Positions 2,941-51,420 of a stretch of 64,000 nt of DNA are shown here, in pieces. Each line of letters opens with the position of its first letter. Position 1 is the first letter of the stretch. This DNA comes from Sialis fuliginosa. Its lineage: Eukaryota > Arthropoda > Insecta > Megaloptera > Sialidae. Where the stretch lies: NCBI GenBank assembly GCA_961205875.1, contig OY540812.1, forward strand, positions 26,855,098 to 26,919,097, given 5' to 3'. Both the position numbers and the translations under genes were made by a program. The notes beneath the pieces are model-generated. The model saw only the letters and a program-made list of their open reading frames with translations, ran no database searches and was not told the DNA's origin.

Positions 2941-4193
2941 GTATTTTATTTTAAATATTGAAATTTGTTTAAACTTTTTTAATTGTATAAATAATTGATT
3001 TGTTGGGGGTGCTAAATGATAGATTTAAATGATTGGAGTAATTTTTGCTTCAACATTTTGTTAATATCCTTACCGTTTAGGAATAATAAAATAATTACAC
3101 TGTGCGTGAGTTGTGAGTCGTCATCCACATGCCATTTAAGATTTCCTAGCTGCCCCCTCCTCCCGGCCCGGGGGTGTACATATAGGTGTTTTTGTGGTTA
3201 AATAATAGACTTTATAATCTCATTGTATTCCTATTTTAAATCCTATATTTCAAACCATTCAAAAGTTATTTACGTGGTCCGGAACTTTTGGAAGGTACTG
3301 TATATTGATTGAGAACCCCCTCATTTTTTGAAGTCAGTTAACACTTCGACTCACTGCAAAGTTTTATACATTCGTTGTAAATTATCCTGTATACAAATTT
3401 TTCGCCCTTGTTATATGGCGCCCTGAGACAGACAGACTATCTCTATACTATACCCTGACGGTACTATTCTGGCATTACTTGTATTTCTAGAATTGGGTTA
3501 ATATCCCTCAAAATATTAATAGTATAGTAATCCATTTATTATACAAAAAACTAATATATTTAAACGTTATATCTACATGCGATTTATAACGTAAATAACA
3601 CGTAGAAAATGGAAAAAGCAATGTTGCATTAATTCATAATTAGGTCAGAGCGTTAATTTTTCAGGTACGTTGATTAAAACGCCCGTATTTTCACCTAATA
3701 AATATTTACAACGTTCCCACAGCATTTTAAACTTTTAATCTTTATAAACACATTGAATTTTAATCTCGTTTCTTTCCGTTTATAAACCACGAGGTTTTAA
3801 CTTGTCTGTTACTTGTACTTTTAATGTCATTTAGATCTAACACTTCTGACATTTTAAACGAACACCTTGAATTGTCGTTTTAGTAAAAATAAAATTTAGT
3901 ATTCATTATTTTTAAATTTTTTTATCGGTTATCCATAAGTAAGGTCTTTTGAACAGTTTTTAACCGACTTCCAAAAAGGAGGTTCTCAATTTGACAATAT
4001 ATTTATGTATGTTCGGACAAAACTTTAATAAATATAAATTTAATAATAAATAATTTAAATAAAAATTTGGACGATTTTTGTTTGTTTGAAAGAGTATACT
4101 CCCGATGGTCCCATGTTTTTATCAGAATCTCACCATGGGCTTCAAAATACGCCACTTAAAAGGGAAAAATAAAAAAAACGACTAAAATATTGA
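2941..4193. other. AT-rich stretch with a short dispersed-repeat relic
   Basis: No gene is visible. A 61-codon frame at 3016-3201 has no recognisable features. Around 3955-4000, CCGACTTCCAAAAAGGAGGT matches a motif that also occurs (as AAAAAGGAGGTTTTC) near 19357, part of a dispersed repeat family with decayed copies here. Confidence 0.45.
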
Positions 4194-4855
4194 TAGTCCA
4201 GTAACTTTATACATCACCGCATGCGTTAAATCCGGTAGTTCTGATTTTTTGCAGACTTGTTTATGATGTTGACCTAATGAATAATCCAAGTTTGTGACCT
4301 CGAGCGCCGAACGCAACTTTGTCAAAAATCGAAAAAACCGCGAAAAAATCGTTATTTTTTCAAATTTTGGCGATTATAACCCTAAAGGACTAGTTTTTGA
4401 AAAAACTTTCTTAGAACGTTTTTAAAGTAGACTAAATTTGCTACAATATGATACTAGAACTGTCTCTGTAGACCCAATAGTTTCCGAGATTAAGCCTTTC
4501 AAAGTTTATCATTTTTTTCGAACTTCGCAATTTTTTGCAATTCTGTCGTTCTGAATGAATTTTGAACCTGATTATACTATCGAAGCCCTGTACTTTTATG
4601 ATGGGATGTTAAAAAAGAAAATGAGAAGTGTGAACGATGATGTTTAAGCTAAGCTACGAATAATGAAGTAAAAAAGATAAGTACAACAAAAGTTAATAAG
4701 TTTATTTGTTAGGAAATTGAGTAATATTCAAAATCAAAAAATTAAATTAATTTAGCCCTATTGAAAGGTCCCGGTTGAGGTTCGTCCGTATCTGGACGTA
4801 TTGGGATGGCATATCTCCATCAGGGGATAGTGATGAATCGTCGACGTGTTGTGCC

Positions 4856-5322
4856 ATTGACATGGCTGGACTGATGATAAGTCAGACATGATGGCTGAAA
4901 TTAAATATTTCCTAACAACCGAAACTGATTATGCGCATGCGTCAACGGATGTTCGAAATTCAAATTTATCAAATTGATTGTTAAATATATAAATAAATAC
5001 ATACAAGTTCGATTGTATATCAACTACACAACTACACTTATTTAATACGCGAATACCTGTAATTTATTTTAATTATCAAATAATAACTAAATAAACAACC
5101 ATAGATGCATATTAACTGTCAAATCTGATTAACAATTGAATAAAGAAACTATAGAATCACGTCACATACCTCTATATTATATCAAAATTGAGTTCAGTGT
5201 TGCGTCTCGCGCATGCGCAAATGGAAATGATACTGTTAGAAAAAGTATGAAATTTAGCCATCCGGTTTAATAGTAATTCCATAGGTATCCACTATCCAGT
5301 TAAATAATACCAGATCAGTGTC
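4856..5322. other. 467-bp insertion inside Academ-like copy 1
   Basis: Copy 2 reads continuously through the acidic tail of the nuclease gene, but copy 1 is interrupted here. TTGTGCC stands on both sides (4849-4855 and 5323-5329), a possible 7-bp duplication. No terminal inverted repeat is obvious. Inside, GCGCATGCG near 4933 and CGCATGCGC near 5210 are an inverted pair. The type of insertion is unknown. It supplies the spurious tail of the 99-codon frame ending at 5254. Confidence 0.55.
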
Positions 5323-6268
5323 TTGTGCCCACAAGTCATCCTCCATTTCGACATCGGACAGATCGTCACCTTCTGGGATATCTACTTCTGCAACATCAGG
5401 TATATTGTCACAAGAGGCCCCGCTGCAGTGCCTGTAGACTGATGAGCATTTTAATCCTGCCTTCCTGCAGCTGCACGCGCTCCCACAACCCTTCGTGCAG
5501 CGACAAGAAATCATCCGCAAGAGGTGTTGTGGGGCTGCATCTCTGGTCATCATTTTGGGGTTGAGGCCTTGTGACGTGGATATCTACCCCCAAGAGAGAG
5601 GGTTCAGTGTGACTCCCAACCATGCCTGTACCTTTAAGAAGATTGTACATGAGAATAGAAAATGATGAATGATATGTAACTGATGCAAGGACAAATTTTT
5701 ACCTGATGGTATGTCCGCAAGGAGTGAAATCGAGCAGAGTCTCGTGTAGGAGGTAACCTGGCTAGATTGAAGCTGGTTTTCGTCGCAGCCCTGGTGAATA
5801 GTTGGTACCGCAGCTCGTCAAAGTTATGGGTGTTGGGGTTGCCTCCGTATAGAGCAATTATGACTCGCTCTCCTGCTGCTGCTATCTCGTCAGGTGTAGA
5901 GTTGGTGTTGAGAAAAATCGCAGCTTGCTTTTCAACGTCCGGATTTTTTTCGACTATGGACATCATTTGCATCTTCCCTAAGCCAAAGAAGCAGGATGTC
6001 GAGTCACAACCACTAAAGGCATGGATGAAGAGGAAAAGCTCTGGTTTCAAAGAGGATTTTGAAGAAGCGATGCTGGAATACATGACATCTGATGCTTTGC
6101 CACTTCCACATTTATTGTAAAAAAATTTCACGTTGGTTTGAGATCGCAGTAAGGATGATCAGCAAGTCAATGTCCTCACCAACGACTACCACTATATCAT
6201 AGGTAGAGGCAGCAGTTACAGCTGTAGTGATGATGAGCCTATCAGCATCTTCCTTTGCTTGGAGTACT
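5323..6268 (-). pseudogene. Broken XPG-like nuclease of the Academ-like element, C-terminal half
   Basis: Reading down the minus strand from 6268 one finds AKEDADRLI and VVGEDIDLLIIL, the acidic motif expected of an XPG-I region. A frameshift follows near 6131. The next frame has HAFSGCDSTSCFFGLGK and runs to a likely intron, with a donor after CATCAG near 5702 and an acceptor at TTCTTAAAG near 5638. Exon two gives AWLGVTLNPLSWG, then an in-frame stop, then a Cys cluster (SCRCTKGCGSACSCRKAGLK) and an acidic tail. The first half of the protein (PIN-like part) is missing here but kept in copy 2. The frame is ended prematurely by an insertion at 5322. Family assignment rests on remembered motif patterns; the breaks are seen directly. 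Confidence 0.75.
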
Positions 6269-6480
6269 TAGGCATGAAATTTTGGCTTTATAGTTCATCA
6301 CCATACCATATAATATTTTAAATGTTCTGTTGTATTATAACTATTTAATAATAATAATAATAATAATAAATGTATGCCAATAATAATAAATTAAATTCTA
6401 AGTTTATCTAAGAAGACAAAAATTAAAACTTTACCAGTTTATTTAATCTTAATCTAATATTACGTGACGACGATGTTGAC

Positions 6481-6582
6481 ATGTTTTCATTATCAGAGAT
6501 AATTGTGAACGACTTACTAAAAGAGATCCTGGAAGATCCTGGAATGATCAACTCTATATTTAATGCTGTCTCTGTAACCACG
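6481..6582 (+). other. Short conserved open segment with a splice-donor-like end
   Basis: A plus-strand frame of about 34 codons starts MFSLSEIIVND and contains EILEDPGMINSIFNAVS. It is followed by CGGTAAGG, which looks like a splice donor. The same segment is in copy 2 at 49160-49257 with only a few changes. It runs opposite to the nuclease gene. It could be a leader exon of a second element gene or simply chance; there is no known family match. Confidence 0.3.
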
Positions 6583-7090
6583 GTAAGGTAGCAAAATAGA
6601 CAAGATGGCGGAGCACTGGGGACCAGTTGCTAGGTTCCGATTCGTGACTTCACACGAGCAATACTAGCACACTCCGTCGGAGGTAATTGGAACTTCATCC
6701 CGCTAGAGTTATTCGAATGACGTCTAAAATATTGCAAAAAATTGCGAAGTTCGAAAAAAATGATAAACTTTGAAAGGCTTAATCTCGGAAACTTTTGGGT
6801 CTACAGAGACAATTCTACTATCATATTGTAGCAAATTTAGTCTACTTTAAAAACGTACTAAAAAAGTTTTTTCAAAAACTAGTCCTTTAGGGTTAAAATC
6901 GCCAAAATTTGAAAAAATAACGATTTTTTCGCGGTTTTTTCGATTTTTGACAAAGTTGCGTTCGGCGCTCGAGGTCACAAACTTGGATTATTCATTAGGC
7001 CAACATCATAAACAAGTCTGCAAAAAATCAGAACTACCGGATTTAACGCATACTACCCCATGCATTCAGGCGACAAAGTTACTGGACTAT

Positions 7091-7186
7091 GAAAAGTACA
7101 TATATAATAATTAAATTTAACAGTTTGTAGAGTCAAAAAGAAAATCGACTTTAAAAACTGTTAAATTTAATTATTATATACTTTTC
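7091..7186. repeat. 96-bp near-perfect palindrome
   Basis: The arm GAAAAGTACATATATAATAA and its inverse near 7167-7186 enclose a short centre; the stem continues through AATTTAACAGTTT. It abuts the right end of Academ copy 1 directly. It may be a tiny MITE or a hairpin formed when the element inserted. It is non-coding. Confidence 0.65.
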
Positions 7187-47646: not shown

Positions 47647-48434
47647 ATGTGTAGAGCAAAAAAAATAGGTCATTATAATTTGTAAGAGAGAAATATAAAA
47701 AGTGTAGATAAAAAAACAAAAAGATATTTGCAGTTGAAAAATTTTCTGAAAATAACCCTTAGTCCAGTAACTTTATACATCACCGCATGCGTTAAATCCG
47801 GTAGTTCTGATTTTTTGCAGACTTGTTTATGATGTTGGCCTAATGAATAATCCAAGTTTGTGACCTCGAGCGCCGAACGCAACTTTGTCAAAAATCGAAA
47901 AAACCGCGAAAAAATCGTTATTTTTTCAAATTTTGGCGATTATAACCCTAAAGGACTAGTTTTTGAAAAAACTTTTTTAGGACGTTTTTAAAGTAGACTA
48001 AATTTGCTACAAAATGATACTAGAACTGTCTCTGTAGACCCAATAGTTTCCGATATTAAGCCTTTCAAAGTTTATCATTTTTTTCGAACTTCGCAATTTT
48101 TTGCAATTCTGTCGTTCTGAATGAATTTTGACCCTGATTATACTATCGAAGCCCTGTACTTTTATGATGGGATGTTAAAAAAGAAAATGAGAAGTGTGAA
48201 CGATGATGGTTAAGCTAAGCTATGAATAATGAAGTAAAAAAGATAAGTACAACAAAAGTTAATAAGTTTATTTGTTAGGCAATTGAGTAATATTCAAAAT
48301 CAAAAAATTAAATTAATCTTGGAAGGTCTCGGTTGAGGTTCGTCCGTATCTGGATCGACGTATTGGGATGGCATATCCCCATCAGGGGATGGTGATGAAT
48401 CGTCGACGTCTTGTGCCCACAAGTCATCCTCCAT

Positions 48435-48925
48435 TTCGACATGAGTGTAACTTGGATCTTCGAAGACGCTCAGAGCTCTTTGTGTTTTTCTGTGCAGCAT
48501 CTACGGGGTAACCATCGAAAACTACTGCCACGTTTGAGCCATAGTGAGCAGAAATGTACTGTATGTATCTGTCAGCTATCGCACCAAATGATGAGCTTCG
48601 AGGCCACACAACATTGTGAAGTAGATGCCCTCCATCCACTACTACAAACTTCGTTAACCCTTGCTTCTCATTTAAGGTTACAGGTTGAAATACTGAATAC
48701 AAGGTGGATTTTGTGCCCTTTCTCATTCCCTCTTCAGAGAACAATGACATTGGGATTGGTGACAGTTCGTAAGTGAAGAACTCTCGCATTTCTTCATCCG
48801 ATTGTTTTAAGACACACAACCTGTGAAACAGTGTTAGAGGATCAAAAGTTACCTGTTTGTTGCCAACAGTTATAGTTCGTACAGCTGAAGAAAGGGACAC
48901 CACATTGTTACCGCTCTTTTAATTA
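48435..48925 (-). pseudogene. Broken XPG-like nuclease of the Academ-like element, N-terminal half
   Basis: Reading from 48925 on the minus strand: SGNNVVSLSSAVRT, VTFDPLTLFHRLCVLKQS, FTYELSPIPMSLF, EEGMRKGTKSTLYSVF, FVVVDGGHLLHNVVW, FGAIADRYIQYI, VAVVFDGYP and SSERLRR. VVDGGHLL and VVFDGYP are the Asp-bearing strands expected of a PIN/XPG-N fold. Shortly after, the sequence jumps (near 48436-48480) to the acidic tail VEMEDDLWAQD found at the end of the copy 1 gene. The central XPG-I part, GCDSTS motif and Cys cluster are lost. No ATG precedes the frame, and a stop lies just upstream, so the beginning is also missing or in another exon. Confidence 0.75.
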
Positions 48926-49020
48926 GAAGGATACCAATCGAACTTAGGCATGAAAATTTGGCTTTATAGTTCATCACCATACCATATAATATTTTAAATG
49001 TTCTGTTGTATTATAACTAT

Positions 49021-49049
49021 TTAATAATAATAATAATAATAATAAATAG
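49021..49049. repeat. TAA microsatellite within the Academ-like element
   Basis: About nine AAT/TAA units. The matching tract in copy 1 is at 6343-6369 and differs by about one to two units. Confidence 0.85.
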
Positions 49050-49257
49050 TGTATGCCAATAATAGTAAATTAAATTCTAAGTTTATCTAAGAAGACAAAA
49101 ATTAAAACTTTACCAGTTTATTTAATCTTAATCTAATATTACGTGACGACGATGTTGACATGTTTTCATTATCAGAGATAATTGTGAACGACTCACTAGA
49201 AGAGATCCTGGAAGATCCTGGAATGATCAACTCTATATTTAATGCTGTCTCTGTAAC

Positions 49258-50209
49258 TAGGGTTTGCAATCCCGCAATGCGGGATCCCGCACGTTTTGGA
49301 GATATGCGGATCCCGCAAAGAAAGTGCGGGATCCGCGCGGAATTTTTTGAACATTAAATTTGTAGGTCGCGTGCGTTTTGAATACTTGTATAGCGTAAAT
49401 ATGGATAAAAAAGGTAACTATTTTGAAAAAAAAAATTAAGGCAGAGATGACTGAATATGAAACTAGTGGAATTTTTACATATCTCTTGTTCACGATTAGT
49501 TAAGTGGTTACATACCTCCAGAATTAAAAAAAAACGTTCGAAAAATGTGACCGCGCAACCGATTAAAATATGCCAGGATTCGCGCGACTCAGGCGACGAA
49601 AAAAGCTTGAACAGTCCGCAGATTACAACAAAAAGAAAACATAAAAAATACAAAATACAAAAATTTAGAAGAAGAATGAGAGATTAAATAAAAGTTAACC
49701 ACAAAAATTTAATATACAAAATTCGTGTTTTCTCACAAACTATCTTTTTCTATACGATCTACACGATATTTTTTTAACAGTATTGTCTCTAAAATACAAC
49801 CGTAAATAATGATATTTAGTGGTTTAGTTTTACGTGAAATACCGTATATACCGGTACGGCGTAAAAAGTGACCTACGTATAAAACAAGGGCTAATTTATA
49901 CGCAACCAAGGAGTTAAAAAAATTAAAATAGTATAATCGAACAAAAAGACAAAAATAGTACCTAACAGATTAGACAACCTCCTATTTACAGGTGTTTTTT
50001 ATGGATTTTACATCGGTCTATACGGTACGTGTTACGTTTACGTATCATATGTTATCGCTATGGAACTATTTTTTATTAGTTGATTGTCATGTTAACTAAA
50101 TAATAGTAACTTTAAGCATGAATAATAAAAATTTTGGAAAAAGTGCGGGATCCCGCGGGATTGGCGGATTTCCCGCGGGAAAAAAAAGTCTGCGGGATTG
50201 CAAACCCTA
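49258..50209. mobile_element. 952-bp hAT element nested in Academ-like copy 2
   Basis: The tips are TAGGGTTTGCAATCCCGC and its exact inverse (18 of 18). TCTGTAAC is identical on both sides (49250-49257 and 50210-50217), and copy 1 of the host element has this 8-mer once, so the insertion is proven by comparison. GCGGGATCCCGC-type palindromes (GCGGGATCC, CCCGCGGGA) cluster near both tips. The centre carries small frames on both strands (49354-49687) with no recognisable transposase motif. Non-autonomous. Confidence 0.93.
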
Positions 50210-50729
50210 TCTGTAACCACTGGTAAGGTAGCAAAATAGACAAGATGACGGAGCACTGGGGACCAGTTGCTAGGTTCCGATTCGTGACTTCACACGAGCA
50301 ATACTAGCACACTTTGTCGGAGGTAATTGGAACTTCATCCCGCTAGAGTTATTCGAGTGACGTCTAAAATATTGCAAAAAATTGCGAAGTTCGAAAAAAA
50401 TGATAAACTTTGAAAGGCTTAATCTCGGAAACTATTGGGTCTACAGAGACAATTCTAGTATCATATTGTAGCAAATTTAGTCTACTTTAAAAACGTCCTA
50501 AAAAAGTTTTTTCAAAAACTAGTCCTTTAGGGTTATAATCGCCAAAATTTGAAAAAATAACGATTTTTTTGCGGTTTTTTCGATTTTTGACAAAGTTGCG
50601 TTCGGCGCTCGAGGTCACAAACTTGGATTATTCATTAGGCCAGCATCATAAACAAGTCTGCAAAAAATCAGAACTACCGGATTTAACGCATACTACCCCA
50701 TACATTCAGGCGACAAAGTTACTGGACTA

Positions 50730-51420
50730 CCTTGACTGTATTCTTATTTACATTGGTTTTTTCCCATGTCCTTTGTTTCATGACGTATATAAAATTTTAG
50801 TGCATGCTTGGTAAGTAAAAAATAACGGTATTAAAACAGTGGTGATATTAAAAATATCTTGTATGGTCAGAGTCACCAACTGTGTTTGAGTGAATTTAAG
50901 TTCTAAATTTCAAAACAATTTGATAGAGAGTGTCACATAAATATTACTCCGTTCAGAGTTCGGAACATTCATGAAGTGATTTTAAATAATAATAATTAAG
51001 GAATAGTTGTTATTTCACAGTAAGAAGTTTTTCAAGAATGCAATTCAACAAGAAAACGATATAAAGTTTTCCATATAAAAGTTTATTCTTTTTTGGAGTT
51101 TTTAATTTATCAGGCGAAGATATTAAATGAACCGGAAAATATTTTGTACGTTTAATTGATTAATGGATTTTCCCTATAGGCAGGAATTTTAATAATTCAA
51201 AAATTGATAAACCGTGTAATTCATACTAATTTGTTCCTTGCGGGAAAAATTTTCTCAACTTTTTGTTTTATTAAATTAACGCAGTTTTCAAACAAAATAC
51301 TAATAAATTGTAATTAATATCCAACCCGTATATAATAAATAATTTCAAATTAGATATATTACTAAATGTATAAATAAAAATTATAATAGCCTTTATTTGT
51401 CCGTCACGCAGCGTCTGAAA
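50730..51420. other. AT-rich stretch without gene
   Basis: No recognisable frames or repeats; composition and short runs resemble the general background. Confidence 0.45.

Follow-up and report, generated by a model that had tools for sequence, protein, structure and literature searches.

Two elements with identical tips lie in the window (the whole 64,000-nucleotide stretch of Sialis fuliginosa DNA that was analysed), and each carries a different part of a minus-strand gene resembling a nuclease gene. This raises the question of what kind of transposon they represent, whether their gene fragments belong together, and whether a complete parent accompanies them in the genome. Our analyses make it quite probable that they belong to a recently amplified family of cut-and-paste DNA transposons, here called W, of which the window copies are non-autonomous members of the AcademX type.

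Architecture of the two elements

Features of the window copies are given below, with positions counted in the window.

Copy 1
4194..7089, W-family element, 2,896 bp
4191..4193, left target-site duplication (TSD), TGA
7090..7092, right TSD, TGA
4194..4208, plus strand, left tip TAGTCCAGTAACTTT
4209..4220, 12-nt spacer between left tip and arm, at the gene-3' end
4221..4541, plus strand, left long inverted arm
4856..5319 (approximate bounds), nested repeat of ~464 bp, interrupting the 3' end of the gene
5254..5583, minus strand, Cys-cluster piece of the nuclease gene, whose frame enters the nested repeat
5634..6158, minus strand, GCDSTS piece of the FEN/XPG-like nuclease
6112..6267, minus strand, EDIDLL piece, in a different frame
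6731..7051, minus strand, right long inverted arm
7052..7074, 23-nt spacer between right arm and tip, at the gene-5' end
7075..7089, minus strand, right tip

Copy 2
47760..50729, W-family element, 2,970 bp
47757..47759, left TSD, CCT
50730..50732, right TSD, CCT
47775..47786, 12-nt spacer
47787..48107, plus strand, left long inverted arm
48300..48500, minus strand, acidic C-terminal protein tail
48424..48918, minus strand, N-half of the nuclease (VVDGG, VVFDGYP)
49250-49257 and 50210-50217, 8-bp duplication TCTGTAAC around a hAT-like element
49258..50209, nested hAT-like element with tips TAGGGTTTGCAATCCCGC
50371..50691, minus strand, right long inverted arm
50692..50714, 23-nt spacer

A preliminary description of this DNA had reported identical tips, long inverted repeats and the TSDs TGA and CCT at both elements, and the tip scan, the arm alignment and the flanks confirm this. 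The 15-nt tips TAGTCCAGTAACTTT are bounded exactly by positions 4194, 7089, 47760 and 50729. When the window was scanned with up to two mismatches allowed, four matches were obtained, all of them exact, where 0.19 would be expected and none of 100 shuffles reached four. The inverted arms are 321 nt long and 98% complementary in both copies alike. Tips and arms do not form a single continuous inverted repeat, being separated by 12 nt at one end and by 23 nt at the other. A pair of 34-nt inverted repeats was observed at 7101-7180, just beyond copy 1 on its right side.

The frames also bear out the described split of the minus-strand gene, with EDIDLL, GCDSTS and the Cys cluster in copy 1 and VVDGG and VVFDGYP in copy 2. 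The two elements had further been described as internal deletion derivatives; this holds in that parts of the gene are missing, but each copy carries a nested insertion and therefore neither is purely a product of internal deletion. The ~464-bp repeat in copy 1 is present in four of 30 W copies compared, and occurs independently of W across the genome (482 first-look candidates, of which the 40 scored were 97-100% identical). By eye, it is flanked by an imperfect 9-10-bp duplication, GTnTTGTGCC. The insertion in copy 2 is a hAT-like element. An intron-like stretch was seen by eye near 5634-5703 in copy 1.

Distribution and variation of the W family

The genome searched comprised 392 Mb in 20 contigs. 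The 348-bp left end of W gave 166 first-look candidates, the 40 scored being 98-100% identical. Matches to the C-half of the nuclease were found at 108 places (the first 61 at 92-100% identity) and matches to the N-half at 36 (the first 10 at 93-100%). Thirty W copies were typed by reading inward from the short-spacer end, in 32 rows of which two were the window copies again. Twenty resembled copy 1 minus the insert, and some of these had additional small deletions; four carried the insert, five were of the copy-2 type and one (L005) was otherwise deleted.

Both ends were read in 12 W copies. The 3-bp TSDs were equal in ten of these and unequal in L038 and L039, and the interior was inverted between unchanged ends in two, L038 and L040, as judged by alignment for six copies and by frame direction and spacer for the others. 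On analogy with Galileo, L038, which combines an inverted interior with unequal TSDs, may have arisen by recombination between two insertions. Galileo shares very long inverted arms and ectopic recombination with W, as told in PMC3688188, but differs in its THAP transposase and its place in the P superfamily.

Origin of the two gene fragments

A third copy, L060 (1,962 bp, TSD TGA), retains the last part of the first half together with most of the second. Its VVFDGYP piece is linked to its EDIDLL/GCDSTS piece through ~50 residues missing from both window copies, the halves being placed in two overlapping frames. Because L060 joins these pieces, both window fragments derive from one gene. In addition to the ~50 linking residues, ~960 upstream residues are missing from copies 1 and 2, as gauged by the full-length family A described below. 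The upstream junction lies at the same leader sequence in both copies, which suggests, without proving it, that the transposase-like region was already missing from an intermediate from which the two deletion types descend.

The preliminary description had seen the two halves as complementary. In a working sense they are not, because both copies lack the same ~50 and ~960 residues and because no purifying selection was detected on either half. For the C-half, 24 of 35 named copies were used, the others being dropped where the part was absent, identity was below 95% or the sequence was too short. Distinct changes against the consensus amounted to 59 nonsynonymous, 12 synonymous and one stop, where 22.4 synonymous were expected; synonymous changes were thus too few (p 0.007, uncorrected and one of 12 frame tests). 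For the N-half (nine of ten named copies), 19 nonsynonymous and 11 synonymous changes were counted against 8.6 synonymous expected (p 0.32). Neither half showed a deficit of nonsynonymous changes. We therefore rejected functional complementation on the selection test, and consider it highly improbable that the two types act as partners, be it as nuclease halves supplied in trans or as repressors. That two deletion types exist and that each was amplified would fit such a partnership, as would the fact that the half is still open in most young copies, the first 10 N-half places being free of stops and 9 of the first 61 C-half places having one. It is opposed by the selection test and by the stretches that both types have lost.

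Full-length relatives and the search for a parent

Full-length relatives of W occur elsewhere in the genome. The frame of family A is 1551 aa from stop to stop and 1,480 aa from the chosen Met, whereas relatives B and C (1,479 and 1,443 aa) are read-through composites of frame pieces and relative D comprises the C-terminal 830 aa. The proteins of A, B and C can be aligned along every region. These three have in common a Cys/His region at the N terminus and a middle region, and the nuclease and the Cys cluster are shared by D as well. The preliminary description had set a DDE transposase against the nuclease, one in place of the other. This proves to be a false choice, because the full-length relatives encode both, a transposase-like region of ~690 aa together with the nuclease.

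Family A occupies 11 places, each element being 5,917 bp long with both 70-nt ends 100% identical. One of these places is:
G000:C1:32995456-33001372, family A element (L061/L062), intact 1551-aa frame

Over a stretch of 3,447 bp, ten of the 11 copies are identical and one has a single-base difference; four further, weaker places were found at 84-93%. The one copy of which the flanks were read has the TSD TAT and lies, by eye, inside a Copia-like element. As 11 copies of this length are practically identical, transposition of family A looks very recent and is perhaps ongoing. Another relative, element E (L077 with L079 and L080; C11:589800-603700), has arms of 2.09 kb at 99% identity and further inverted repeats inside.

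An autonomous parent of the window family, expected elsewhere in this genome by the preliminary description, was not found. Middle-region matches were detectable at about 45% identity in this assembly, and a 438-aa middle-region piece of relative B matched 50 places. None of 79 W places (hand-picked at ≥83% identity from N-half and C-half matches, with L060 counted twice) had a detectable middle region within 15 kb, and the smallest distance was 28 kb. The lost parent would have encoded a protein of roughly 1,450-1,500 aa, in which an N-terminal Cys/His region would be followed by a middle region of ~690 aa (probably a DDE transposase), a FEN/XPG-like nuclease and a Cys-rich cluster. W may have been moved in trans, by a transposase that binds tip and arm.

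Probable relationship of the nuclease to FEN/XPG proteins

The motifs IDGG, VVFDGY, QA..DAD, EDiDlL and GCDTTS occur in the element nuclease in FEN/XPG order. In a profile-profile alignment of 194 columns at about 18% identity, VFDG, E/DAD, DxD and GxD are in register; the first motif, IDGG, is not covered by these columns and was matched by eye only. This alignment was made with hhalign against a combined template of 43 prokaryotic FEN1 sequences (those of 80 fetched loci that passed a length and start filter) and pieces of host and human FEN1, XPG and EXO1. It scored 39.4 (E 2.2e-4, probability 45%), against 26.8 for the best of 60 column shuffles, 14.4 for the reversed template and 19.8 for the middle region. 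The eukaryotic pieces alone as template gave 31.1 versus 22.6 for shuffles. The prokaryotic FEN1 rows alone scored 28.5 over just 37 aligned columns, a value that has no shuffle baseline. A short template of XPG_I only failed, its score of 18.7 being under the best of 60 shuffles (19.6).

Sequence searches of Pfam, NCBIfam and PDB named neither the nuclease nor the middle region convincingly. A whole-genome search with XPG_I (PF00867) gave six matches at four loci, none at a listed element place; three of these loci read as the XPG, FEN1 and EXO1 genes. Weak names below the cut-off were set aside, namely CFAP126 (0.011), NYN (0.12), DUF3800 (0.032), TetR_C_9 (0.024), DUF6589 (0.047), Aim19 (0.086), ArsR (0.0044), the PIN toxin TIGR00305 (0.0041 and 0.0088) and spermidine synthase (E 2.2). 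Structure models of the window fragments were poor, with mean pLDDT of 39.8 and 38.4, and a search of viral_contigs gave no relatives.

The XPG-type match that had been anticipated is thus absent from Pfam, while the larger templates gave profile-profile scores above all shuffles. The reading of the gene as an XPG-type nuclease followed by a Cys cluster, which no Pfam model matched, is accordingly graded as probable on motif order and profile-profile comparison. Judged from sequence, the element nuclease is likely, if not proven, to be related to the FEN/XPG group. It resembles FEN1, XPG and EXO1 in the order and register of the acidic motifs, and differs from them in being one part of a transposon protein, in which a C-terminal Cys cluster is also present.

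The middle region and a proposed mechanism

The motifs DNaDfN..TlDG..TfHxmG, TfDQPLY and GgFHxLMSf of the middle region recur in A, B and C with slight variation. Neither profiles nor solved structures gave a significant match to this region. DUF6589, which we had considered as a candidate model for the Academ transposase, was found at one place in the whole genome (E 3.0), outside every listed element place, and was dropped. Staggered strand transfer leaves a 3-bp TSD with inverted ends, the trace that W shows. From the motifs, the TSDs and the listing of Academ among the DDD/E transposase superfamilies in PMC9587614, the middle region is probably a DDE transposase.

We think it unlikely that the nuclease is instead the sole catalytic enzyme, with the middle region acting as a DNA-binding scaffold. 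In its favour, the nuclease motifs form the best-supported catalytic site and the middle region is without a DDE profile or solved-structure match; the TSDs with inverted ends, the conservation of the middle-region motifs in A, B and C and the DDD/E listing of Academ all speak against it. If the middle region is a DDE transposase, it would perform strand transfer with a 3-bp stagger, and the nuclease could trim a flap or the 5' strand that is not transferred. One short-spacer end would be paired by the enzyme with one end whose spacer is longer by one helical turn.

Asymmetric ends

Spacers of 12 and 23 nt were present in 11 of the 12 W copies with both ends. The remaining copy, L039, has 12 and 9; its second end looks like the short type, and its TSDs do not match. 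When the best 40 short-type and the best 40 long-type W ends were paired by coordinates, 27 elements with one end of each type resulted; 13 ends per list were unpaired, and the set overlaps the 12 copies read. Among these best 40 and 40 ends, no two of the same type faced each other within 5 kb.

A comparable shift recurs in the relatives. The distances from end to arm are 33 and 24 in A and 37 and 28 in B, a shift of 9 in each, and in E they are 22 and 32 by scan or 24 and 34 by eye, a shift of 10. In F they are 23 and 33 by eye, a shift of 10; the arm scan of F, which has no matching TSD, was weak (shift 9, identity 0.64 vs 0.61). With the shift of 11 in W, the ends are displaced by 9-11 bp, about one helical turn, in all five families with both tips found. 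As the families are related, these are not five independent events. Outside this count are C and H, in which arms were not found, D, for which a single end was available, and G. In G (L084, C7:302700-308900), arms of 325 nt at 96% identity were observed, with outer limits that carry neither the TAGYCCA tip nor a TSD. G is either decayed or a family without the tip, and would be an exception with a shift of 0 if its arm limits are its true ends.

In W, A and B the long-spacer end lies on the 5' side of the gene, and in E and F it lies on the 3' side. The 5' end of D, a relative that by eye belongs to the family of E, is of the long type. The long spacer seemed at first, from W, A and B, to keep a constant orientation, which E, F, L038 and L040 contradict. 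Recombination between near-identical arms would explain both the varying side of the long end and the inverted interiors.

Two explanations of the asymmetry were weighed. The first, to which we assign close to an even chance, is that a single ancestor passed the asymmetry on as a frozen accident without function. The relatedness of the five families, shared descent within W at about 98% identity and a shift of 0 in G, if its arms reach its ends, are in keeping with it. It fits less well that arms and spacers are dissimilar between families (by eye) and yet the shift stays at 9-11, that within elements of W, A, B and E the arms agree at 98-100% over the 200 positions scanned and yet the intervening spacer has not been homogenised, and that the sole 12/9 copy of W lacks a TSD. 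The second explanation, which we put forward tentatively and hold to be possible rather than probable, is that AcademX-type transposases obey a rule like the 12/23 rule, in which a short-spacer end pairs only with a long-spacer end one helical turn apart. As part of this same tentative explanation, the homogenised long inverted arms would allow inversion of the interior without loss of the end code.

A functional pairing rule would have parallels in other systems. RAG signals likewise are paired ends with two spacer lengths, 12 and 23, and asymmetric ends work better for ProtoRAG, according to PMC8289069; RAG and ProtoRAG differ from W in their 5-bp TSD, their heptamer and nonamer and the RAG proteins. 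The literal recurrence of 12 and 23 in W is probably a coincidence, only the shift being shared. The P element is not known to encode a nuclease and has a different protein. Its spacers of 9 and 21 bp are likened to 12/23 signals in PMC7776569, and its ends differ from those of W in having an 8-bp TSD and 31-bp repeats. Among the Academ papers listed by our literature searches, no title or displayed abstract opening mentions such an end asymmetry.

Classification

The AcademX lineage of the Academ superfamily reportedly goes back to Kojima 2020 (Mob DNA 11:15) as its primary source. TSDs of 3-4 bp for AcademX and of 9-10 for AcademH, and a link to nuclease and helicase, are given in PMC10045372. 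W is a nuclease-encoding DNA transposon with a 3-bp TSD, as is AcademX, a likeness by description only. TSDs of this length were also found in the relatives A (TAT), B (GAA) and E (ATC), while F had no match. The features of AcademH are absent: the W TSD has 3 bp and not 9-10, and no helicase was among the Pfam matches of A-D. We provisionally regard AcademX as the closest kind, an assignment set by descriptions rather than by reference sequences. The placement in Academ made by the preliminary description is probably right, with corrections. The 3-bp TSD and the probable nuclease with its Cys cluster support it; Pfam gave no XPG match.

Implications

The window elements themselves are probably ordinary non-autonomous transposons, and the asymmetry of their ends and the near-identical family A are more notable. 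To find out by biochemistry why a flap-type nuclease is part of a transposase, family A is a natural place to begin. If the asymmetry is a rule, discrimination of spacer length would exist in one more group of transposases beside P and RAG. Such a spacer rule, if true, would bear on the origin of the 12/23 rule in V(D)J recombination, and it could be tested with family A, which is apparently still active.
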